Shown here piece after piece: positions 2,429 to 41,951 of a stretch of 64,000 nt of DNA (its first letter is position 1; every line of letters begins with the position of its first letter). The notes under the pieces were generated by a model. That model searched no databases. It saw only the letters and a program-made list of their open reading frames with translations, and had not been told where the DNA came from. Origin of the DNA: an uncultured Flavobacteriaceae bacterium. GTDB taxonomy: Bacteria > Bacteroidota > Bacteroidia > Flavobacteriales > Flavobacteriaceae. Both the position numbers and the translations under genes were made by a program. Location: NCBI GenBank assembly GCA_905479835.1, contig CAJQNZ010000009.1, forward strand, positions 62,001 through 126,000, given 5' to 3'.

Positions 2429-3922
2429 ATGACAACAAAAGTTGTAAAAATTATAAAACAAGTGTCATTTGTTTTATTAATAGGAATCATTTCTTGTGAA
2501 TCGGATATAGAAGGAGTGGGTGTTAATCTAGTTGATAATGGTGCTTTTGAGACAAATTCATATAGTTCAGAAATAATTTCATATAATCATAATATTGATA
2601 ATGTAAAGGCTAATATGCTAGGTCAATATCTTTTAGGAGTTTATAAAAATGAAGATTTTGGACAGATAGAAGCTTCTATAGTTTCTCAATTAACATTTGA
2701 AGATGCTCTTTTTTCAGGATTTGGAGACAGTCCATCGATAGATAGTGTTCTTGTTTCAATTCCTTACCATGCAACTCGTCAAGCAGACGATAATGATAAT
2801 GGTTCTCCAAAGTTTGTTTTAGATTCAGTATTTGGAAATAAAGATGTCGCGTATAACTTGAGTGTATATGAAGTGGAAACTTACTTGAACACGTTAAATC
2901 CCTCTGATCCCTCAGAAGAATTGGATTACTATTCAGATCAATCTTATGATTTTAATCCTACGGCATTATATACAGGATTATTTAAGCCAAACGAAAAAGA
3001 TACGGTTGCATATATAGAAAGACCATTGCTGGCAGATAGAGACACAATAAAAATGCCTGGAGCATTGCCTTTTATTCAAATACCATTGGATAAAGAGTTT
3101 TTTACAAATAACTTTTTATTCAATTCATCAGCATTTCAATCTAAAACAGCGTTTATTGATTTTTTTAGAGGGTTGTTGATTCAAGCAACTCCAGCCTCAG
3201 ATCCAGAAGCATCTATCACATCTTTAGATTTAAGTACTGCTACGATGTCAATTTATTATACCAATACTGTTGACGCAGTTAAAACGAAACAGACTTTAGA
3301 GTTTAGTTTTAGCGGTGTATCTTCCAATAATGGAATAACATCAACACTTTATAATCGAGATTATTCTTCATCCAATGCAGAGCCTTTTATTACGAATCCT
3401 AATACCTTATTAGGCGATGAAAAATTATATATACAAGGAGCCTCAGGCTCAATGGCATTAATAGATGTATTTGCAAATGAAAATATTGAAGAAATTCGAA
3501 ATAACAATTGGTTGATTAATCAAGCAAATTTAATTTTCTATATAGATCAAAGTTCTGATTTGTCCTTACTACCAGAAAGATTGTTTTTATATAATTATCA
3601 AGACAACACACAATTAACTGATGCGTTGACTGAAACAGCAACATATGATGGATTATTAGAAAATGACGAAACAGGAAATCCTTGGAGATACAAGATTAAT
3701 ATTACAGATTATATATCCAATGTTTTAAAACTTGATGATCCTTTAGAGCCAACGAAATTAGGTTTAAAAGTTTTTAATACTTCAGATTTTCCAACAATTG
3801 TTGGAGATGAAAGTGTAAGTGATTTAAGTTGGACAATTAAAGGGGTTGTAGTTCATGGAAATACAACTACAGATATTGATAAAAGAAGTAAATTGGAAAT
3901 TATTTATTCGGAAATTAATTAA
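2429..3922 (+). CDS. DUF4270-family lipoprotein
   Basis: N-terminal signal with lipobox (IGIISCESD); family recognised by sequence and by position before glmS. Confidence 0.75.
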   Translation: MTTKVVKIIKQVSFVLLIGIISCESDIEGVGVNLVDNGAFETNSYSSEIISYNHNIDNVKANMLGQYLLGVYKNEDFGQIEASIVSQLTFEDALFSGFGDSPSIDSVLVSIPYHATRQADDNDNGSPKFVLDSVFGNKDVAYNLSVYEVETYLNTLNPSDPSEELDYYSDQSYDFNPTALYTGLFKPNEKDTVAYIERPLLADRDTIKMPGALPFIQIPLDKEFFTNNFLFNSSAFQSKTAFIDFFRGLLIQATPASDPEASITSLDLSTATMSIYYTNTVDAVKTKQTLEFSFSGVSSNNGITSTLYNRDYSSSNAEPFITNPNTLLGDEKLYIQGASGSMALIDVFANENIEEIRNNNWLINQANLIFYIDQSSDLSLLPERLFLYNYQDNTQLTDALTETATYDGLLENDETGNPWRYKINITDYISNVLKLDDPLEPTKLGLKVFNTSDFPTIVGDESVSDLSWTIKGVVVHGNTTTDIDKRSKLEIIYSEIN

Positions 3923-3933
3923 GTCAACATCAT

Positions 3934-5790
3934 ATGTGTGGAATAACGGGTTATATAGGCTTTAGAGATGCGTATCCAATAGTAATGAATGGATTAAAAC
4001 GATTGGAATATCGTGGATATGATAGTGCAGGAATAATGATGTATGATGGGAAGTCTATGAATCTTTCTAAAACAAAAGGTAAAGTTTCAGATCTAGAAGA
4101 AGTTACTGAAACTGATTCAAAAAGAAAAAAAGGAAATATAGGAATAGGTCATACAAGATGGGCAACTCATGGTGTACCAAATGATACAAACTCTCACCCT
4201 CATTTTTCTCAATCTGGAGACTTAGTTATTGTTCACAACGGTATTATAGAAAACTATGATACTATTAAAAAAGAACTTATCAATCGTGGTTATAAGTTCA
4301 ATAGCGATACAGATACGGAGGTTCTTATTAATCTTATTGAAGAAGTAAAAAAGAATGAAAAATGTAAATTAGGAAAAGCAGTACAAATTGCTTTAACAAA
4401 TGTCACTGGTGCTTATGCAATCGCAGTTTTTGATAAAACAAAACCAAATGAAATTGTAGTTGCACGCTTAGGAAGTCCTATTGCTATTGGTGTAGGAAAC
4501 GATTACAAAGAGTTTTTTGTAGCTTCAGATGCTTCTCCTTTTATAGAATATACAAAAGATGCTATTTATTTAGAAGATGGCGAATTAGCAATTATAAAAT
4601 TAGGAAGAGAGGTTCGTGTACGTCAAATAAATAATGATAAAGTAGTAGATCCTACAATTCAAGAACTTCAAATGAGTTTGGAGCAGATAGAAAAGGGTGG
4701 TTACGATCACTTTATGTTGAAAGAAATCCACGAGCAACCAAAAGCAATTACAGATACATATAGAGGAAGAATGCTTGCTGATCAAGGAATCATTCGTATG
4801 TCAGGAGTTGATGATAATCTTCAGAAATTCTTAAATGCTGAAAGAATTATTATTGTAGCTTGTGGAACATCATGGCATGCAGGTTTAGTTGGAGAATACC
4901 TTTTTGAAGATATGGCTCGTATTCCTGTTGAGGTAGAATATGCATCAGAATTTAGATATAGAAACCCAATTATAAGACCCAACGATATTGTGATTGCGAT
5001 TTCTCAATCCGGAGAAACTGCGGATACTCTTGCTGCTATTAAATTGGCAAAATCAAGCGGAGCATTTGTTTTTGGAGTATGTAATGTAGTAGGTTCATCG
5101 ATAGCTAGAGAAACACATGCAGGAGCGTATACGCATGCAGGACCAGAAATAGGAGTAGCATCTACGAAAGCGTTTACAACACAGATTACAGTTCTCTCTT
5201 TAATTGCATTAAAGTTAGGTCAAGCAAAAGGAACTTTATCAAAAACAGTTTTTCACACCTATTTACAGAGAATGCAATTAATACCTGAAAAAGTTGAGAA
5301 GTTATTGCAAATTGATGAAAAGGTAAAAGAAATTGCAGCAGTTTATAAAGACGCTAAAAATTGTTTATATTTAGGAAGAGGTTTTAATTTTCCTGTAGCA
5401 TTAGAAGGCGCTTTAAAATTAAAAGAGATTTCTTATATTCATGCAGAAGGTTATCCTGCAGCAGAAATGAAACACGGACCTATAGCATTGATTGATGAAA
5501 ACATGCCAATTTTTGTAATTGCGACCAACAAGGGGCATTATGAAAAAGTAGTAAGTAATATTCAAGAAATTAAAGCACGTAGTGGAAAAATTATTGCTAT
5601 AGTTACTGAAGGCGATATAGAGGTAAAGAGAATTGCTGATCATGTGATTGAAATTCCAGAAACTGAAGAAGCACTAACTCCATTGTTAACTACAATACCA
5701 TTTCAATTATTATCATATCACATTGCAGTGATGTTAGAAAAAAATGTAGATCAACCTAGAAATTTAGCGAAAGCTGTAACGGTAGAATAG
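3934..5790 (+). CDS. glmS: Glutamine--fructose-6-phosphate aminotransferase (isomerizing)
   Basis: MCGITGYIGFRDA N-terminal Ntn nucleophile, SIS domains (CGTSWHAGLVGEYLFE, SQSGETADTLAA), C-term PRNLAKAVTVE. Confidence 0.97.
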   Translation: MCGITGYIGFRDAYPIVMNGLKRLEYRGYDSAGIMMYDGKSMNLSKTKGKVSDLEEVTETDSKRKKGNIGIGHTRWATHGVPNDTNSHPHFSQSGDLVIVHNGIIENYDTIKKELINRGYKFNSDTDTEVLINLIEEVKKNEKCKLGKAVQIALTNVTGAYAIAVFDKTKPNEIVVARLGSPIAIGVGNDYKEFFVASDASPFIEYTKDAIYLEDGELAIIKLGREVRVRQINNDKVVDPTIQELQMSLEQIEKGGYDHFMLKEIHEQPKAITDTYRGRMLADQGIIRMSGVDDNLQKFLNAERIIIVACGTSWHAGLVGEYLFEDMARIPVEVEYASEFRYRNPIIRPNDIVIAISQSGETADTLAAIKLAKSSGAFVFGVCNVVGSSIARETHAGAYTHAGPEIGVASTKAFTTQITVLSLIALKLGQAKGTLSKTVFHTYLQRMQLIPEKVEKLLQIDEKVKEIAAVYKDAKNCLYLGRGFNFPVALEGALKLKEISYIHAEGYPAAEMKHGPIALIDENMPIFVIATNKGHYEKVVSNIQEIKARSGKIIAIVTEGDIEVKRIADHVIEIPETEEALTPLLTTIPFQLLSYHIAVMLEKNVDQPRNLAKAVTVE

Positions 5791-31860: not shown

Positions 31861-33555
31861 ATGCGTTGGACATTAAAACCTATTCCTGAAAAAGAAAAAA
31901 TCATAAAGTTATCTCAAGAACTAAAAGTTTATCCTATAGTTTCGAAACTACTTTTACAACGAGGAATTGAAACCTATGATGCGGCTAAAAATTTCTTTCG
32001 CCCAAACATAAATCATCTTCACAATCCATACTTAATGAAAGATATGGACAAGGCAGTCAAAAGAATTGAATTGGCAATTTCTCAAAATGAGAATATTCTC
32101 ATTTTTGGAGATTATGATGTTGATGGAACGACATCAGTTTCACTAGTTTATTCCTATTTAAAATCTTTTTACTCTAATGTTGCTACTTATATTCCTGATA
32201 GATATGACGAAGGGTATGGCATATCAACTCAAGGAATTGATTTTGCAGAAGACAATAATTTTTCGCTGATTATAGCTCTGGATTGTGGAATTAAAGCGAT
32301 TGATAAGGTTATTTATGCATCCGAAAAGAAAATTGACTTTATCATTTGTGATCATCATAGACCTGGAAAAGAACTTCCAAAAGCTGCAGCAGTTTTAGAC
32401 CCAAAAAGAGAGGATTGTGAATATCCTTATGATGAATTATGTGGTTGTGGAGTTGGTTTTAAATTGATACAAGCATTGTCTCTAAATAGAGAAGAAACAA
32501 TGGATGACTTGTTGCCCTATTTAGATTTAGTAGCAACAGCAATTGCAGCAGATATTGTTCCGATGACTGGAGAAAATAGAATATTGGCTTATTATGGATT
32601 GATAGTTATTAATAAAGCACCACGTCCTGGAATCAGAGCCTTAATTCATTTGCCAAAAAAAGAGTTGACAATTTCTGATGTTGTTTTTGGAATCGCTCCA
32701 AGAATTAATGCTGCCGGAAGAATTAAACATGGACAATATGCTGTAGAAATATTGACAGAAACTAATTTAGATATTGCAGTTGAATTGGCTAAAGAAATTG
32801 AACAAAATAATATAGACAGAAAAGAACTAGATAAAACGATTACGAATGAAGCACTTCAACAAATTGAAACAGCTAATGAACAGCAAAAATTTTCAACTGT
32901 TGTTTATCATGAAGCTTGGCATAAAGGTGTTATTGGTATTGTGGCTTCTCGATTGATAGAGACCTATTATAGACCTACACTTGTATTTACTAAAAGTGGC
33001 GATAAGTTGGCTGCATCCGCACGTTCTGTAAAAGGATATGATGTTTACAACGCTCTAGAAAAATGTTCTGCTTTTATAGAGCAATTTGGAGGTCATAAAT
33101 ATGCTGCAGGATTGACTTTAAAGCCAGAAAATTATAAGAAGTTTAAAGAAAAATTTGAAGAAGTAGTCAGAGAATCAATGCCTGAAGAATTGAGAATTCC
33201 AGAGGTTTTAATTGATGCAGAAATTGAACTGGGAGACATTACTCCTAAATTTTTTAGGATTTTAAAGCAGTTTGCCCCTTTTGGGCCCAGAAATATGAGA
33301 CCTGTTTTTATGACAAGTACATTGCGAGATAATGGTTATGGAAAACAAGTAGGTGATGACAAGAGCCATTTAAAATTAAACATTATAAGTGGCGCTGATA
33401 AAAAGACCTACAATGCTATTGGATTTGGGCTTGGAGATCAATTGGATTCAATTAAAAAAAACGGATCTTTTAACGCTGTTTTTAATATAGAAGAGAATCA
33501 ATGGAATGGAAATATTTCTTTACAACTACAATTAAAAGATATTAAAATAGTATAA
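31861..33555 (+). CDS. recJ: Single-stranded-DNA-specific exonuclease
   Basis: IFGDYDVDGTTS, ALDCGIKA, CDHHRPG DHH motifs; GGHKYAAGLTL DHHA1. Confidence 0.95.
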   Translation: MRWTLKPIPEKEKIIKLSQELKVYPIVSKLLLQRGIETYDAAKNFFRPNINHLHNPYLMKDMDKAVKRIELAISQNENILIFGDYDVDGTTSVSLVYSYLKSFYSNVATYIPDRYDEGYGISTQGIDFAEDNNFSLIIALDCGIKAIDKVIYASEKKIDFIICDHHRPGKELPKAAAVLDPKREDCEYPYDELCGCGVGFKLIQALSLNREETMDDLLPYLDLVATAIAADIVPMTGENRILAYYGLIVINKAPRPGIRALIHLPKKELTISDVVFGIAPRINAAGRIKHGQYAVEILTETNLDIAVELAKEIEQNNIDRKELDKTITNEALQQIETANEQQKFSTVVYHEAWHKGVIGIVASRLIETYYRPTLVFTKSGDKLAASARSVKGYDVYNALEKCSAFIEQFGGHKYAAGLTLKPENYKKFKEKFEEVVRESMPEELRIPEVLIDAEIELGDITPKFFRILKQFAPFGPRNMRPVFMTSTLRDNGYGKQVGDDKSHLKLNIISGADKKTYNAIGFGLGDQLDSIKKNGSFNAVFNIEENQWNGNISLQLQLKDIKIV

Positions 33556-33594
33556 AAAAAGGGCTAAAATTTTATAATTTCAGCCCTTTTTTTT
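33554..33594. terminator. Bidirectional intrinsic terminator after recJ
   Basis: AAAAAAAGGGCT...AGCCCTTTTTTTT. Confidence 0.88.
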
Positions 33595-33607: not shown

Positions 33608-34312
33608 TCACAGTTTGTGGTAATAGTTTAAGACTTTTACAACATCAAACTCGTTTTTAAAATTTATCTTATTAGAAGATATATATTTTTTCAATTCAGA
33701 AGTTTTATCACCTAAACTTTTCAAAACGGCTTTTTTACTAAGTCTGGTTTTGACATATTTTTCAGATTTATTTTTAAGATAGTATGTGGTTTTCTCCTTA
33801 TATTCTCTTGCAAAATTATTATTTGTGCCAGCACCTTTACTTAAATTTGGATCAAAAACATATTTTTGAGTATCCTTAATTAAATAATTTGTTTTGGTTA
33901 AATTATTGACAACCTCATAGAATTTAGTTTTATTTTCAGCGTTTTTAAAACTAGAACGCGGTACTTTAGAAAAATAGTGTTTGATATACTTTCCTTTTTC
34001 TTCTATTACAAATCCTGTCACACTGTAATCTCTCACTTTAAAGCCACTTCCATCTTTAGCCTTTAAGACAATTGCTCCTTCTAGTTGATCAAATAGAATG
34101 TTATCTTGATGTGAAAAAATAGAATCACTTAAAATAATATAACCTTCATTCCAGTCTTCTAGTAAGTATTTTGATCCATTTATGGTATTATTCTCAGTAA
34201 TTAATAATATTGTATCACCACTAAAATTTTCGTTATCAGTTGTAATAGGGTTATTGGTTTGTGAAAATGCAATAAATGAAGTTAAGGCGAAGATAAAAAA
34301 TAGTTTTTTCAT
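33608..34312 (-). CDS. Secreted hypothetical protein
   Basis: 234 aa with signal peptide MKKLFFIFALTSFIAFSQ; no family recognised. Confidence 0.65.
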   Translation of the reverse strand: MKKLFFIFALTSFIAFSQTNNPITTDNENFSGDTILLITENNTINGSKYLLEDWNEGYIILSDSIFSHQDNILFDQLEGAIVLKAKDGSGFKVRDYSVTGFVIEEKGKYIKHYFSKVPRSSFKNAENKTKFYEVVNNLTKTNYLIKDTQKYVFDPNLSKGAGTNNNFAREYKEKTTYYLKNKSEKYVKTRLSKKAVLKSLGDKTSELKKYISSNKINFKNEFDVVKVLNYYHKL

Positions 34313-34379
34313 AACATTGTATATTAATAGGTTTAACTTTAATTCAATCAGTAATAATATTATAAATATAGTGAAAATA

Positions 34380-35417
34380 TCACTTTTCTTTTATTAAATA
34401 AATATAAACTGGAAAATGATCACTATATCCTCCAGTAAAAGTATCATTATTTGACCAACTTCTATATGGATATCCTTTATACTGTCCTTTACTATTGATT
34501 AAATATTTTGGATTAAAAATTCCGGCTTTATAAAATTTATAGGAAGTATAATTACTGTTTTTAACAAATAAATTGGATGAAAAGATAATTTGATCAAATA
34601 GATTAATATTATCTCGAAATCCTAACGAACCGATTCCTCTTTTAAACATTTTTTCAAATGGATTGTATAGAGATTCAGATTTAGAATTCAACATTTTTTT
34701 TATGCTAATGGAATTTGGATCATCATTAAAATCTCCAATTGTTAAGATTTTAGCATTTTGATTCTGATTCCTTAGTTCAGAAATTATGGTAGAATTAAGT
34801 TCCGCAGATTTTTTTCTCAGGTATTCGGTTTTATTTGCGCCACCTCTTTGGGAGGGCCAGTGATTTACAATTATATGAATTAACTCACTATCTAGATATC
34901 CAGAAACTAACAATTGATTTCTAGTCTTCACACGATACCCTTTATCATTCCATGCTTTTAATTCATACACTTTATAATCTGATGGACTAAAAACGGTTGT
35001 TCTATACAATAACGCAACATCAATTCCTCTCCAATCATGAGATTCAATATGTATATAATCGTATTTTTTATTTTTTAAATATTCAGAATTTAAAAGATCG
35101 TTAATTACAGTGTCATTTTCAATTTCTGCAATTCCAATTATAGCAGGACTTTTTCCACTTTTTTCCTTCCCAATTTCAGAAAGCACTCTTGCCATATTGT
35201 TGATTTTATTCCAATATGCTTTCGTTTTATTCCCTTTCATTTTAAGAATGGGACTGTATTCATCTTTTGTCTTGGAATTGTCTATTGTGTCAAATAAATT
35301 TTCAAGATTATAAAACGCAATTGTATTGATTTTATACTCTTTTTTTTTCTCATTTTGAGAAAAACACGAAGTAATTGCACACACCAATAATAGTGTACAT
35401 ATTGTAACCTTTTTCAT
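34380..35417 (-). CDS. Endonuclease/exonuclease/phosphatase (EEP) family protein, predicted lipoprotein (paralog A)
   Basis: FYNLENLFD, IAEIEND, VNHWPSQRGG, IGDFNDDP, GYSDHFPV; N-term MKKVTICTLLLVCAITSC lipobox. Confidence 0.9.
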   Translation of the reverse strand: MKKVTICTLLLVCAITSCFSQNEKKKEYKINTIAFYNLENLFDTIDNSKTKDEYSPILKMKGNKTKAYWNKINNMARVLSEIGKEKSGKSPAIIGIAEIENDTVINDLLNSEYLKNKKYDYIHIESHDWRGIDVALLYRTTVFSPSDYKVYELKAWNDKGYRVKTRNQLLVSGYLDSELIHIIVNHWPSQRGGANKTEYLRKKSAELNSTIISELRNQNQNAKILTIGDFNDDPNSISIKKMLNSKSESLYNPFEKMFKRGIGSLGFRDNINLFDQIIFSSNLFVKNSNYTSYKFYKAGIFNPKYLINSKGQYKGYPYRSWSNNDTFTGGYSDHFPVYIYLIKEK

Positions 35418-35481
35418 AGCATTGAAAATTTAAAATCGAAACTTGTTTTTTAAATTAAGTTTCAGATGTTGGTTGTATGTT

Positions 35482-36531
35482 TTATTTTTTTTCTCTTATT
35501 AAATGCATATACACAGGATAATGATCACTATATCCTCCTGTATATGTACCCCAAGAAAAACTTCTAAAAGGATATCCTTTATACCTTCCTTTATTACTTA
35601 TTAAATATTTAGGATTATATATTCCAGCCTTTTTCATTTTATAACTTGAGTAATCTTTGTCTTTTGATAATAATTGAGAGCTAATAAGAATCTGGTCAAA
35701 TAAATTTATATTATCTCTATAACCAGCAGTATTTAATCCTCTTCTGAACATATCTTCAAACGGATTATAGATGTCATTTTCTTGAACATCAGTTTTCTTC
35801 ATTTTGGTCTTCATGATATTCTTAAAACTTGATTCCATGGGGTCATCATTAAAATCTCCCATGGTTATAATTTTAGCATTTGGTTCGTTTTCTCGAATTT
35901 GCTTCATGATTTTAACATTTAAAGCTGCGGCTTTTTCACGAAAAGGAATACTTCTTGTTCCACCTCTTTTAGAAGGCCAATGGTTTACGATTACATGAAT
36001 CATTTCTCCATCTAAATATCCTGAGACTAATAACTGATCTCTAGTATAAATTCGCTCACCTTCATTATTATATATAAGTAATTCAAAACTTTGATGATTT
36101 ACAGGTTTAAAAAAACGAGCTTGATATAAAAGACCAACATCAATTCCACGCTTATCAGGAGAATCATAATGGATTATTTTATATCTATTTTTCTTTAAAA
36201 ACTTTCCTTTGACAATATCATTCAGAACAGTATCATTTTCAATTTCTACAACACCTATAATTGCAGGACTATTTCTAGCGTCTTTTTTTCCGATATCTGA
36301 AAGAACACTTCCTAGCTTGTCAATTTTATCCCAATAAACAGTTGATCTATTACTTTTCAATTCCATCATTGGACTTGCTTCATCATTTTTAGCTGTATTA
36401 TTAATAGTGTCAAAAAGATTTTCAAGGTTGTAGAAAGCTAATGTCCTTATTTCATATTCTTTATTTGATTTTTGAGCTTGTACTCCATGACTGATTGAAA
36501 ATACAAGAAAAAATAGAAGTAATCTTTTCAT
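35482..36531 (-). CDS. EEP family protein, predicted secreted (paralog B)
   Basis: Same EEP motifs (VVEIEND, VNHWPSKRGG, MGDFNDDP, GYSDHYPV); signal peptide MKRLLLFFLVFSISHGVQAQ. Confidence 0.9.
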   Translation of the reverse strand: MKRLLLFFLVFSISHGVQAQKSNKEYEIRTLAFYNLENLFDTINNTAKNDEASPMMELKSNRSTVYWDKIDKLGSVLSDIGKKDARNSPAIIGVVEIENDTVLNDIVKGKFLKKNRYKIIHYDSPDKRGIDVGLLYQARFFKPVNHQSFELLIYNNEGERIYTRDQLLVSGYLDGEMIHVIVNHWPSKRGGTRSIPFREKAAALNVKIMKQIRENEPNAKIITMGDFNDDPMESSFKNIMKTKMKKTDVQENDIYNPFEDMFRRGLNTAGYRDNINLFDQILISSQLLSKDKDYSSYKMKKAGIYNPKYLISNKGRYKGYPFRSFSWGTYTGGYSDHYPVYMHLIREKK

Positions 36532-36625
36532 TTATAGTTGTTTGTTTATTTGGTAAAAATAAAACAATATTCGAGCCAAACAATAAGTTCTTTTAAATTT
36601 AACTTAAAATTTCAAGTAAAAAATG

Positions 36626-36633
36626 TAATTTTG
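36626..36633 (+). promoter_or_regulatory. Putative Bacteroidetes -7 box upstream of TonB-dependent receptor
   Basis: TAATTTTG, 38 nt before ATG. Confidence 0.4.
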
Positions 36634-36671
36634 TTTTGCGTTTTTTAAATGCATAAACAGAAAACTTTTAT

Positions 36672-39461
36672 ATGAAAAAAACAATTATTTCAATGCTTTT
36701 GATTGCACTCCCTTTTTGGGTTATAGCTCAATCAACAGGTGTTGTAAAAGGAATTGTTTCAGATAGTGATACAGAATTACCACTATCGGAAGCAACAGTA
36801 GTTGTTGAAGGGTTAAAAAACACATCTTCAACTGGAAGTGATGGAAAATTTATTTTAAATAATGTTCCAATTGGAGCTCAAAAAATAAGTGTTAATTTAG
36901 ATGGTTATGAAACACAGATTTTCCCAATTAATTTAGAATCTGAAAAAGAAGTAGATCTTGGAGAAATTTTTCTATTTAAGAAGTATGTTCAAGATATTGA
37001 TGCAGGAGTTGTACTTCTTTCAGAAGACGATTTAAACGACGATGAAGGCGGTGCTGACAACACTGCGGGATTATTACAATCTTCTAGAGATGTTTTTTTA
37101 AATACTGCTGCATTTGAATTTAGCGCAACATTTTTCAGGCCACGAGGTTTCAATTCTGAAAATGGAAAGCTTTTGATCAATGGAATTGAAATGAACAAGA
37201 TTCAAAATGGAAGACCACAATGGAGTGATTGGGGAGGGTTAAATGACGCGCAGAGAAATCAAGTTTTTTCAAATGGGTTGGCTCCTTCTGAATATACTTT
37301 TGGAGGTGTTGGTGGATCGAATAACATTATTATGAGGGCTTCTGAATATAGAGAAGGAGCAAAAATATCTTATGCCGCTTCTAATAGAAGTTACACAGGT
37401 CGTGTGATGGCAGGATATTCTTCTGGACTGAATGATAAAGGATGGGCTTATTCAGTATTAATGTCAAGAAGATATGGAAATGAAGGTTATAATGACGCTA
37501 CTTTATATGATTCTAATTCGATTTTTATAGCTGTTGAAAAAGTATTTAATGATCAACACAGTTTAAACTTTACTAGTTTTTATACGCCAAACAGAAGAGG
37601 AAAATCATCTCCAAATACGGACGAAGTATTTGATTTAAAAGGAAGAACATACAATTCTTTTTGGGGATACCAAGATGGTAGTAAGCGTAATTCAAGAGAG
37701 CGAGAAATTGAAGAACCAGTATTTATGTTAAATCATTACTGGAATTTAAGTGAGAATACTACATTGAATACTAATATTGCTTATCAAACAGGAAAAATAG
37801 GAAATAGTAGAATTGATAATGGTGGAACGAATTTATTAACCAATTCTTTAGGGGAAGAATTTCTTATAGGAGGAGGTTCCAATCCTGATCCAACATATTA
37901 CCAAAAATTACCAAGTTATGCTTTGAGAAATGGAAGCATATCTAATGCTTACTTGTCGCAACAAGAATTTCAAAATGACGGACAGATTGATTGGAATTCA
38001 TTATACCAAGCAAATCTTTCAAATGGGAATTCAATTTATGCATTGTACGAAGATAGAAATGATGATGATCAGTTTACCTTTAACACAATCCTTCGTAGTC
38101 AATTAAATGACAACGTTGCATTGAACGGTTCTGTTTCCTATCGTAATTTAAAGTCTCATAATTTTGCTAATATGCTAGACTTATTGGGAGGAGATGGCTA
38201 TTTAAATGTAGATTCATTTTCTGAAACAATTGATGAAGCACAAAATGATTTAAGAAATCCAAATAGATTGGTTCAAGTAGGAGAAAAGTACAGATACAAT
38301 TTTGAAATAGAAGCAACTATTATTGATGCATTTGCACAAGCACAGTTTCAATATGATAAAGTTGATTTCTATGTTGGAGCAAAAATTGCAACGACAGATT
38401 ATCAAAGAAACGGATTATATGAAAATGGACGTTTCTTAGGAAATAGATCATTTGGAGAAAGTGAAAAAGTATCTTTTTCTAATTTCAGTACCAAAGGAGG
38501 ACTTACATATAAAATTACTGGGCGTCATATTTTAGATTTTAACGCTGGATACTTAACCAAAGCGCCAACTGTAAGAAACACCTTTTCGAATTCTCGAGAA
38601 AATAACGATATAGTTGTAGGTTTAACCGATGAAAAAATTACTTCAGCAGATATAAGTTATATTCTTAGAACTCCAAAGGTGAAGGCTCGTGCGACTGGAT
38701 ATTATACAAAATTTGAAGATGCTACTGAAATTTCTTTTTTCTATGCAGATGGAATCAGTGGAATCAGTGATACTGAGTCTGCCGCATTTGTTCAAGAAGT
38801 ATTAACAGGAGTCGATAAGCGTAATATTGGTTTAGAGTTTGGAATTGAAGCTCAAGTTACACCGACTATTAAATTGAAGGGAGCTGCTGCAATCGGAGAT
38901 TATGTATATGATAGTAATCCGAATCTTTATTTAGCTTCAGATGATTTTGATGAAAATATTGAATTTGGCGAATCTGCGCTAAAAAATTACCATGTTGCTG
39001 GAGGACCTCAGCGAGCAATGTCTGTTGGGTTTGAATATCGTGATCCAGATTATTGGTGGTTTGGAGCAACAGCAAATTTCTTTTCAAATGGATATGTAGA
39101 TGTCGCACCAATTACAAGAACAAGTAATTTTAGTTCAGACCCTATTGATGGATTACAGTTCAATGATTATGATCCAGAATTGGCAAGAGATTTATTGGCT
39201 CAAGAAAAATTTGACAACTATATGTTGGTAAATGTAATAGGAGGAAAATCTTGGAAAATAGATGATTATTATGTTGGTGTTTTTGCAACGGTAAGTAATA
39301 TATTAAATGAAGATTATAAAACTGGAGGTTTTGAACAATCTAGAAACGCTAATTTCAGAGAGTTACGTGATGATCAAGCTCTTGACACGCCAGTATTTGG
39401 ATCAAGGTATTGGAAAGGATTTGGAACATCTTACTTTGTAAGTGTTTACTTCAGATTTTAA
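36672..39461 (+). CDS. TonB-dependent receptor with CarboxypepD_reg-like N-terminal domain
   Basis: Signal peptide; GVVKGIVSDSDTELPLSEATVVVEGLKNTSSTGSDGKFILNNVPIG; plug RPRGFNSENGKLLINGIEMN; beta-barrel ending in SVYFRF. Confidence 0.92.
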   Translation: MKKTIISMLLIALPFWVIAQSTGVVKGIVSDSDTELPLSEATVVVEGLKNTSSTGSDGKFILNNVPIGAQKISVNLDGYETQIFPINLESEKEVDLGEIFLFKKYVQDIDAGVVLLSEDDLNDDEGGADNTAGLLQSSRDVFLNTAAFEFSATFFRPRGFNSENGKLLINGIEMNKIQNGRPQWSDWGGLNDAQRNQVFSNGLAPSEYTFGGVGGSNNIIMRASEYREGAKISYAASNRSYTGRVMAGYSSGLNDKGWAYSVLMSRRYGNEGYNDATLYDSNSIFIAVEKVFNDQHSLNFTSFYTPNRRGKSSPNTDEVFDLKGRTYNSFWGYQDGSKRNSREREIEEPVFMLNHYWNLSENTTLNTNIAYQTGKIGNSRIDNGGTNLLTNSLGEEFLIGGGSNPDPTYYQKLPSYALRNGSISNAYLSQQEFQNDGQIDWNSLYQANLSNGNSIYALYEDRNDDDQFTFNTILRSQLNDNVALNGSVSYRNLKSHNFANMLDLLGGDGYLNVDSFSETIDEAQNDLRNPNRLVQVGEKYRYNFEIEATIIDAFAQAQFQYDKVDFYVGAKIATTDYQRNGLYENGRFLGNRSFGESEKVSFSNFSTKGGLTYKITGRHILDFNAGYLTKAPTVRNTFSNSRENNDIVVGLTDEKITSADISYILRTPKVKARATGYYTKFEDATEISFFYADGISGISDTESAAFVQEVLTGVDKRNIGLEFGIEAQVTPTIKLKGAAAIGDYVYDSNPNLYLASDDFDENIEFGESALKNYHVAGGPQRAMSVGFEYRDPDYWWFGATANFFSNGYVDVAPITRTSNFSSDPIDGLQFNDYDPELARDLLAQEKFDNYMLVNVIGGKSWKIDDYYVGVFATVSNILNEDYKTGGFEQSRNANFRELRDDQALDTPVFGSRYWKGFGTSYFVSVYFRF

Positions 39462-39494
39462 ATTTTAAATAAAAAGAATAATAAAAATAAACTC

Positions 39495-40922
39495 ATGAAA
39501 GCAATTAAATTTTTACAAATAACAACATTCGCGATACTTACTATGGCAGTAGTATCTTGTGTGGACGACAATGAATACGATGTACCACCTACAGCAACTC
39601 AAGTTGAACCAGTTGTAACGGTTAATTCAAGTATTGAAGCTATGAAAGGAGCTCTTGATCAGCATTTCGCATCTGAAGGAGAGTCTAAAATGACTATGGA
39701 TGTTGAGTCTGATTTAGTATTTTCTGGATATGTTGTTTCTAATGATCTTGCAGGGAACTTTTTTGAATCAATAGTTTTACAAGATAGTCCAAGCAACCCA
39801 ACAGGAGGAATTGAGGTATTGATTGATAAATCTTCTTTATTTGAAACATATGAATTTGGAAGAAAAGTATATATAAAAATGGCTGGATTAAGTATTTCGT
39901 ATGAAGATGGTGAAGATAATGATCCTACTGATACTGCTGCTGCTGGTAGATATACTATAGGTGTTGATAATGGAGGTTTTGGTCTTGATGAAATTCCTCA
40001 GTTTTCATATTTAGAAAATGTTCTTAGATCTACAGAAACGGCTGAAATAGTTCCAACTATGGTTTCAGCTTCAGCGTTTTCTGAAGACAATATTAATACT
40101 TTTATACAATTGACAGATGTTCAATTTGTGAAATCACAATTAGGTAAAACATATGCTGGAGAACCTACAGATCAATTTGACGGATTTAGAAATGTTGTTA
40201 GTTGTACAGATGAAGCAGGAGCAGTATTGCAGACAAGTACATTCTCAGATTTTAAATCATATCTGTTACCTTCAGGAGTAGGAACTTTAAATGCAGTATT
40301 GGCTAAAGATTTCCGTGCTGATTTCTTTGTGATTATTGCAAATTCTCCTATAGATATTGACTTTACTAATCCGGAGAGATGTGATCCAGTAGTTCTTGAG
40401 TGTGATGGATCAACATCAAATGCAAGTACTGTTTTTGATGAAGATTTCGAAGGAGTTTTTAATAGTGCAGATTTATCAGCACTAGGATGGACTAATATTA
40501 ATGTGTCTGGAGGAAACGAATTATATGAAAGTAATTCATTCAGTGGCGATCGATATATGAAAATATCTGCTTTTGGAACTGGAGAAAACCCAATGGAAAC
40601 ATGGATGGTTTCTCCATCAATTAATTTAGATAGTTCTACGGAAGAAGAATTGAGTTTTGAAATTTCATCTAACTTTGAATCTGGACAAATTATTACAGCC
40701 TTAATAACTGAAAACTTTACAGGGGATGTGTCGACTACAGAGTGGACTCAACTTGATGTTGCAATTCCAGTAGGTGATGGAGGTTTTGGAGATTTTGAAA
40801 CGCTATCAACCAATATTTCTTGTTTGAATGGAAACGTGAATGTTGCTTTTAAATATTTAGGAGCCGCAGGAGCCTCAGAAACAAGATACCATATTGACGA
40901 TGTGAAAATTACGGGATTATAA
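39495..40922 (+). CDS. DUF5689 / choice-of-anchor J domain lipoprotein
   Basis: Lipobox AVVSCVDD; DLVFSGYVVSNDLAGNFFESIVLQD; C-term WMVSPSINLD...YHIDDVKITGL. Confidence 0.82.
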   Translation: MKAIKFLQITTFAILTMAVVSCVDDNEYDVPPTATQVEPVVTVNSSIEAMKGALDQHFASEGESKMTMDVESDLVFSGYVVSNDLAGNFFESIVLQDSPSNPTGGIEVLIDKSSLFETYEFGRKVYIKMAGLSISYEDGEDNDPTDTAAAGRYTIGVDNGGFGLDEIPQFSYLENVLRSTETAEIVPTMVSASAFSEDNINTFIQLTDVQFVKSQLGKTYAGEPTDQFDGFRNVVSCTDEAGAVLQTSTFSDFKSYLLPSGVGTLNAVLAKDFRADFFVIIANSPIDIDFTNPERCDPVVLECDGSTSNASTVFDEDFEGVFNSADLSALGWTNINVSGGNELYESNSFSGDRYMKISAFGTGENPMETWMVSPSINLDSSTEEELSFEISSNFESGQIITALITENFTGDVSTTEWTQLDVAIPVGDGGFGDFETLSTNISCLNGNVNVAFKYLGAAGASETRYHIDDVKITGL

Positions 40923-40940
40923 TAAATAGAAATAGTAAAT

Positions 40941-40974
40941 AAAAAACGCCGTTCAATATTGAACGGCGTTTTTT
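40941..40974. terminator. Perfect palindromic bidirectional terminator
   Basis: AAAAAACGCCGTTCAATATTGAACGGCGTTTTTT. Confidence 0.93.
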
Positions 40975-40979
40975 ATGTC

Positions 40980-41951
40980 TTAATTTTTCTTTAAATAGGC
41001 AAGTACAGGAAAGTGATCGCTATAGCCTCCTTGATACCATCTTCCTATAAAAGTTCTATAAGGCATTCCTTTATTTTTTCCTCTGAATACTTTTAAAAAG
41101 TCTCTGCTGAAGATTTCCGCATATTTAAAAGAATGCTCATTTTCCTTTTCTTCCATAAAATTTTTGGAAAAAATTATTTGGTCAAATAAAAACCAATCCT
41201 TTTTATATTTTAAAGAACCATTTCCTTTGGCATATAAACTTTCCATGGGATTGTATAAATCTTCTTGTACCAATGTTTCTTTAATACTTTTAGTAGTAGG
41301 ACCATCATTGAAATCACCCATGATAATGATTTTTGGGTTTTCAGATTTTGCTCTTAAATCGTTTATTATTTGTCGATTCAGTTCAGCCGCTTTGACGCGT
41401 TTGTATTCTGTAGTTTCTGCGCCATCTCTTCTTGAAGGCCAATGATTCACCAATATATGCATCAACTCGCCGTTTAATTTTCCTTTTACAAGTAAAACAT
41501 CTCGTGTTAAATCTCTTTCACCTTCGGTATTATCTATCAGTAATGGAAAAACTTTAGAATCAATTAATTCAAAAAATTGCTTGTTATAGATCAATCCTAC
41601 ATCAATACCACGTTCGTCAGGAGAATTATAATGCACATAATCATACTCAATTCCTTTCAGGTCTTTGGAGTGTATTAAATCGTTTAAAACAGCCTTGTTT
41701 TCTACTTCAGCTATTCCTAGTATTATAGGAGGATGAAAAGATTTTTCAAGACCTATCTGTTTTATAACCTTGCTCAACTTTTTTATTTTCTTATGATATT
41801 TTTTTTGACTCCATTTTAACCTTCCATTTGAAGTAAAATGATCATCTAGTATTGACGGATCATCTGTTGTGTCAAATAAGTTTTCTAGATTGTAAAAAGC
41901 AATTGTAAATGCTTTGGAATCTTGACCTTTTGATTTAAAATATGATAACAT
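40980..41951 (-). CDS. EEP family protein without signal peptide (paralog C)
   Basis: FYNLENLFD, IAEVENK, VNHWPSRRDG, MGDFNDGP, GYSDHFPV; N-term MLSYFKSKGQDSKAFTIAFYN lacks a signal sequence. Confidence 0.9.
   Translation of the reverse strand: MLSYFKSKGQDSKAFTIAFYNLENLFDTTDDPSILDDHFTSNGRLKWSQKKYHKKIKKLSKVIKQIGLEKSFHPPIILGIAEVENKAVLNDLIHSKDLKGIEYDYVHYNSPDERGIDVGLIYNKQFFELIDSKVFPLLIDNTEGERDLTRDVLLVKGKLNGELMHILVNHWPSRRDGAETTEYKRVKAAELNRQIINDLRAKSENPKIIIMGDFNDGPTTKSIKETLVQEDLYNPMESLYAKGNGSLKYKKDWFLFDQIIFSKNFMEEKENEHSFKYAEIFSRDFLKVFRGKNKGMPYRTFIGRWYQGGYSDHFPVLAYLKKN

Follow-up and report, generated by a model that had tools for sequence, protein, structure and literature searches.

The locus described here is located in a window of 64,000 nucleotides, the whole stretch of DNA that was analysed, from an uncultured Flavobacteriaceae bacterium (assembly GCA_905479835.1, contig CAJQNZ010000009.1). 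It contains genes for a TonB-dependent outer-membrane transporter (the receptor), a lipoprotein with a DUF5689 domain and three proteins of the EEP family, which we call EEP A, B and C (Table 1). Two hairpins enclose two divergent units, one made up of the genes for EEP B, EEP A and a hypothetical protein and the other of those for the receptor and the DUF5689 lipoprotein, with EEP C located outside. EEP B is the copy adjoining the receptor gene and is transcribed divergently from it. A previous sequence-only reading of this DNA had placed these six open reading frames (ORFs), all of which are confirmed in position and strand, with the EEP, DUF5689 and TonB-receptor identities upheld by Pfam and fold matches. 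It had also described a perfect terminator between the lipoprotein gene and EEP C, which indeed has a perfect stem and could serve both ways, and the EEP family motifs, which are present in all three proteins (FYNLENLFD, E, NHWPS, GDFND and SDH, with GDFNDG in EEP C). Across 19 aligned EEP sequences the catalytic motifs do not vary.

Table 1. Features of the locus, with positions in the window
Feature	Position	Strand	Description
Hairpin, terminator-like	33554-33593		18-pair stem and T tail, between the convergent recJ gene and the EEP B-EEP A-hypothetical unit
Hypothetical exported protein	33608-34312	minus	234 amino acids, isoelectric point (pI) 9.4; companion at genus level, not a conserved part of the module
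EEP A	34380-35417	minus	Predicted exported, probable lipoprotein (lipobox ITSC), receptor-linked clade; PF19580, 316 bits
EEP B	35482-36531	minus	Predicted exported (signal peptide), receptor-linked clade; PF19580, 331 bits
Divergent intergenic region, EEP B/receptor	36532-36671		140 bp; Bacteroidota -7-like TAnnTTTG on the receptor side (motif scan)
TonB-dependent outer-membrane transporter	36672-39461	plus	Orthologue, by sequence and order, of R. anatipestifer RA0C_RS04915; CarbopepD_reg_2, 45 bits
DUF5689 and choice-of-anchor-J lipoprotein	39495-40922	plus	Orthologue, by sequence and order, of RA0C_RS04920 (M949_1556 family); PF18942, 155 bits
Bidirectional terminator	40939-40976		Perfect 17-bp stem, between the DUF5689 gene and EEP C
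EEP C	40980-41951	minus	Neighbour outside the module, clade without signal peptides; PF19580, 365 bits

With profile scores far above the cut-off of 27 bits, EEP A, B and C are assigned to the PF19580 EEP family. In each of two trees, all receptor-linked EEPs form a single clade together with EEP A and B (support 100/99 and 100/97), and EEP C is located in a different one. Signal-peptide-like amino-termini, called with a hydrophobicity heuristic rather than with SignalP, are present in 64 of the 66 order-level members of the linked clade and in 34 of 35 class-wide, against none of 18 in the clade of EEP C. These sequence comparisons indicate that EEP A and EEP B arose by tandem duplication of a single exported EEP at the level of the genus. 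EEP C, which belongs to a separate clade without signal peptides and is located beyond the terminator, is probably a cytosolic protein outside the module; of the three EEP paralogues that had been grouped around the receptor, the linked, exported pair A and B is left. Like the ExeM/NucH nucleases, the window proteins have an EEP catalytic domain and give weak NF033681 matches (26 bits for EEP B and 34 bits for EEP C, with no match for EEP A), but EEP A and B each consist of a single domain and fall far under the NF033681 cut-off of 300 bits.

The model of the receptor is of low confidence (pLDDT score 62, with a poorly modelled plug). Its top 50 matches in the PDB are all TonB-dependent transporters or their complexes, with E-values from 3e-20, and as modelled its fold is that of a TonB-dependent transporter, with a plug and a 22-strand barrel. 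In a class-level profile search, the receptor family is sharply separated from other receptors (E <= 8e-112 versus >= 1e-40). The model of the lipoprotein contains a carboxy-terminal jelly-roll; each of the Foldseek matches shown is a single domain of about 170 residues, a jelly-roll or similar, and would correspond to this carboxy-terminal domain, not to the DUF5689 part. A nucleic-acid-related fold for DUF5689 was considered and dropped, as the matches shown appear to cover the jelly-roll-like domain alone. Most DUF5689 proteins, the window protein included, carry a lipobox with acidic residues behind its cysteine. Flavobacterial surface lipoproteins have this pattern, which suggests that the window lipoprotein is displayed on the cell surface. 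The arrangement resembles SusCD-type polysaccharide utilisation loci (PULs) in having a TonB-dependent transporter with an amino-terminal carboxypeptidase-regulatory-like domain and a surface lipoprotein that is probably co-transcribed with it. It differs from them in that the lipoprotein contains DUF5689 and choice-of-anchor-J domains and has no SusD/RagB match in Pfam or NCBIfam, that no glycan enzymes were found, and that Pfam gives no barrel match for the transporter and a Plug match slightly under the cut-off. A more typical SusC/BtuB-like paralogue of the receptor, with 25-30% identity, is encoded on contig 1 of the window genome (L319:6632-9382) and is present in most relatives; in several Flavobacteriaceae it is located a few genes from the DNA-uptake locus, and in L038 it adjoins the gene for phosphoglucose isomerase. 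In two genomes the receptor gene is broken into two ORFs and apparently decayed (G034:C1:1616647-1619357 and G193:C19:401339-404096); both genomes still hold an EEP gene, which in G034 adjoins the receptor.

For a pair of this kind, a phenotype has been described in Riemerella anatipestifer. In a transposon-screen study, markerless deletion of either RA0C_RS04915, an outer-membrane, carboxypeptidase-regulatory-like protein, or RA0C_RS04920, a DUF5689 and choice-of-anchor-J protein, led to a strain without detectable transformants, and the two proteins are unlike known competence proteins (PMC8459023). In the model proposed there, the step that generates single-stranded DNA is assigned to an unidentified protein; no EEP is part of the model, and RA0C_RS04910 appears solely as the upstream gene of a transcription check (PMC8459023). 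In the literature searched, which did not include preprints or most subscription journals, no deletion phenotype for RA0C_RS04910 was found, and DUF5689 was met in this screen alone. Our scan of named genomes yielded R. anatipestifer CCUG25054 (L097) and R. columbina (L096). In L097 the genes are ordered as ComEC, a protein of 145 amino acids, a carboxyltransferase and an EEP, followed by the divergent receptor and DUF5689 genes. Since this order fits the tags 04895 (ComEC), 04915 and 04920 one for one from 04895 to 04920, RA0C_RS04910 is very probably the EEP gene, as judged by gene count in another strain. The window receptor and lipoprotein are 37% and 25% identical to the L097 proteins, respectively, and the neighbourhood is the same; by sequence and order, the window pair is orthologous to RA0C_RS04915/RA0C_RS04920. 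ComEC and DprA are encoded in both genomes (at G000:C29 and G000:C32 in the window genome), while in the window organism the EEP is doubled (A and B) and comEC is located on a different contig. The ComEC proteins examined by motif scan do not contain the metallo-beta-lactamase motif that has been proposed as the strand-degrading nuclease elsewhere, which leaves room for a separate nuclease. The EEP nuclease linked to the pair is an addition of the present analysis to the published R. anatipestifer model.

The lipoprotein of the L097 transformation locus (L097:12840-14249) also matches NF052645, the M949_1556 family, at 591 bits, above the cut-off of 475; the window lipoprotein matches it over its full length but below the cut-off, at 216 bits. 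The M949_1556 gene of R. anatipestifer has been examined for antigenicity and pathogenicity (Zou 2015, via PMC12566107), and the work, as far as it is recounted there, is not about DNA uptake. In the literature searched, and within that same account, the pathogenicity work and the transformation role of the Riemerella lipoprotein are unconnected.

The EEP gene is conserved beside the pair well beyond Riemerella. It is divergent from the receptor and DUF5689 genes in 79 of 80 named Weeksellaceae loci, the contig of the 80th ending 1.1 kb upstream, and, by coordinate comparison, in 37 of the 39 sampled relatives whose receptor is complete (the exceptions are G029 and G036). The distance to the receptor is 1.5 kb or less in 45 of 58 loci, with all 13 exceptions in genus g44, and the gap in relatives ranges from -9 to 232 bp; a motif scan of this intergenic region brought out no conserved regulatory motif. 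Among 40 loci from 14 other families the EEP gene is divergent in 28, co-directional in two, within a few genes in four and absent in six; it adjoins the receptor in 30 of these class-level loci and 13 of the 14 families. Together with f1, f3, f5 and f10, adjacency is observed in 17 families. The arrangement is far beyond chance, because genomes contain one to three EEP genes and yet one of them adjoins the receptor in nearly every relative; for two EEP genes in about 3,000, we estimate chance adjacency at about 0.1-0.2% per genome. It is quite unlikely that the EEP is a bystander, the pair taking up DNA and the EEP being a general exported nuclease that uses the common intergenic region. Such a role would agree with retention of the EEP in four genomes without the receptor and with its relocation in the g44 clade, where the receptor is retained, but not with adjacency in 17 families, nor with the presence of an EEP in each receptor-positive order-level genome with EEPs listed, bar the fragmentary G013. 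All 70 receptor-positive genomes contain DprA and all DprA-negative genomes are without the receptor; there are also 58 DprA-positive genomes without it, and many of the DprA-negative genomes are tiny f16 genomes. This co-occurrence is confounded by phylogeny and is given little weight.

Further secreted nucleases are located within four genes of the receptor in 13 loci. They include EEPs with a type IX secretion system (T9SS) tail (L274, L275, L276, L283, L287 and L293), T9SS-tailed PLD-family proteins (L277, L286, L301 and L306), three of which are fused to DUF5689, and Endonuclease I (L289, L292 and, from the window's family, L051). Save for L051, these added enzymes occur outside Flavobacteriales. 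The PLD proteins would be nucleases rather than lipases. Nucleic acid as the ligand of the receptor is well supported by this comparison of loci, our best evidence being that unrelated nuclease families have joined one receptor. The evidence for fusion of DUF5689 to nucleases consists of Pfam matches, which score 44-53 bits for the PLD proteins and 28 bits for a single EEP protein; a home-made DUF5689 profile failed to detect the EEP fusion proteins. This EEP protein (L314:2688-7028, 1,446 amino acids) has, besides a weak T9SS tail, an ExeM-like, an EEP and a DUF5689-like region, the last at 28.3 bits against a cut-off of 28.6, and it suggests that DUF5689 is a nuclease-associated module.

EEP enzymes also include lipid and inositol phosphate phosphodiesterases. 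The receptor might thus import a small competence nutrient or signal, with the EEP acting as a phosphodiesterase on this molecule or on the head groups of lipids and DNA never passing through the receptor. The influence of phosphate and iron on Riemerella transformation (PMC8383284) fits such a role, which we nevertheless regard as highly improbable: the loss of transformation is total rather than partial, and Endonuclease I and the PLD-family proteins linked to the receptor have unrelated folds, with nucleic acid as the likely shared substrate if the PLD proteins are nucleases. Transformation is reduced in both the tonBA and the tonBB mutant of R. anatipestifer, and the tonBA mutant has no iron defect (PMC8383284).

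We consider it probable that the locus encodes a TonB-dependent DNA-import module serving transformation, with the EEP as candidate DNA-processing enzyme. The surface DUF5689 lipoprotein would capture DNA and cooperate with the transporter, which would move it through the outer membrane on TonB energy, and the imported DNA would go on to ComEC, DprA and RecA, which would complete natural transformation. EEP A and B, being exported, would act on this DNA too, most likely by cutting or trimming it in the periplasm or on the cell surface, which would let it thread the transporter or become single-stranded ahead of ComEC. By analogy with R. anatipestifer, the transporter and lipoprotein would have the same roles in the window organism; in the proposed mechanism, DNA itself would pass through the transporter and the EEP would be the processing nuclease. 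The uptake and degradation system proposed in the sequence-only reading is retained here in its TonB-type transporter, surface lipoprotein, exported nucleases and likely nucleic-acid ligand, without EEP C as a member, and this module is conserved class-wide. Its preferred role, a PUL-like nutrient system, gives way to import for transformation because, as published for R. anatipestifer, natural transformation is lost when either member of the pair is deleted (PMC8459023); scavenging is a possible second role. That scavenging is the primary role, with fragments of DNA or RNA imported for phosphate, nitrogen or nucleosides and Riemerella transformation as a by-product, is unlikely. Secreted nucleases recur at the locus, a split 5'-nucleotidase is found beside the module in family f34 (L299 and L287) and the EEP is retained where receptor and DprA are missing, all as expected for scavenging; the sole known phenotype, however, is the loss of transformation (PMC8459023), the identified flanking genes are mostly housekeeping genes, without nucleoside transporters or phosphatases, and a match to a SusD-type partner is absent.

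Several observations weigh against the DNA-import module. The EEP was not recovered in the R. anatipestifer screen, which was non-saturating at 3,000 mutants, and Flavobacterium johnsoniae carries the pair yet was non-transformable under one condition (PMC8459023). A DUF1343 protein is essential for transformation in R. anatipestifer (PMC8459023), and DUF1343 (NamZ_N) was not found in the window genome (G000, 82% complete), although it is present in three congeners. The window receptor and lipoprotein are very acidic (pI 4.7 and 4.05, respectively), which is unexpected for DNA-binding surfaces; class-wide, the receptors are basic, unlike that of the window. In one Flavobacterium-like clade (genus g44), the EEP is located away from the receptor, mostly by 16-62 kb on the same contig. 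In four genomes in which neither receptor nor DUF5689 was found, G017 (also without DprA), G145, G253 and G051, an EEP of the linked clade is present, which points to some receptor-independent use; the EEP probably does something besides its receptor-linked role. Against an exclusive transformation role stand this persistence of the EEP and the f34 5'-nucleotidase, split in two ORFs beside the module.

If the DNA-import module is as proposed, the conserved, linked nuclease is a testable candidate for a missing, nuclease step in DNA uptake by Bacteroidota, its retention beside the pair across much of the class predicts widespread DNA import of this kind in a major phylum, and DUF5689, a domain of unknown function, gains a likely context. 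A broader proposal, which we put forward tentatively and at somewhat less than even confidence, is that Bacteroidota import DNA by a dedicated TonB-energised transporter without a retracting pilus, DUF5689 loading the DNA, the exported EEP cutting it or making it single-stranded and some lineages adding nucleases, in one machine for transformation and feeding on DNA.

Some further features were observed. The 345-kb, endosymbiont-size genome G051, which has neither DprA nor receptor, still contains an EEP from the receptor-linked clade, intact and with its signal (L254:4322-5443). A replacement nuclease for the EEP in g44 was looked for and rejected; in the loci scanned the upstream gene encodes an MFS transporter, and the EEP is merely relocated. 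In the f34 5'-nucleotidase (L299:10685-12363 and L287:1637-3245), one of the two adjacent ORFs encodes a carboxy-terminal domain, and the other is metallophosphatase-like and begins with a twin-arginine-like sequence. In the window, no Rfam elements or tRNAs were found. The hypothetical exported protein has no Pfam or NCBIfam match; similar genes occur in two copies in G009 and are absent from G005. Directly past the DUF5689 gene in L038, L039, L219 and L220, a PAS-rich histidine kinase and a receiver-domain protein are encoded. As a general linked regulator this pair was rejected, being close in just these four Flavobacteriaceae loci of 92, and several neighbours of about 735 amino acids taken for PAS kinases turned out to be PLD-family, peptidase or radical-SAM proteins; in the four loci themselves, the kinase and receiver pair is a possible local regulator.

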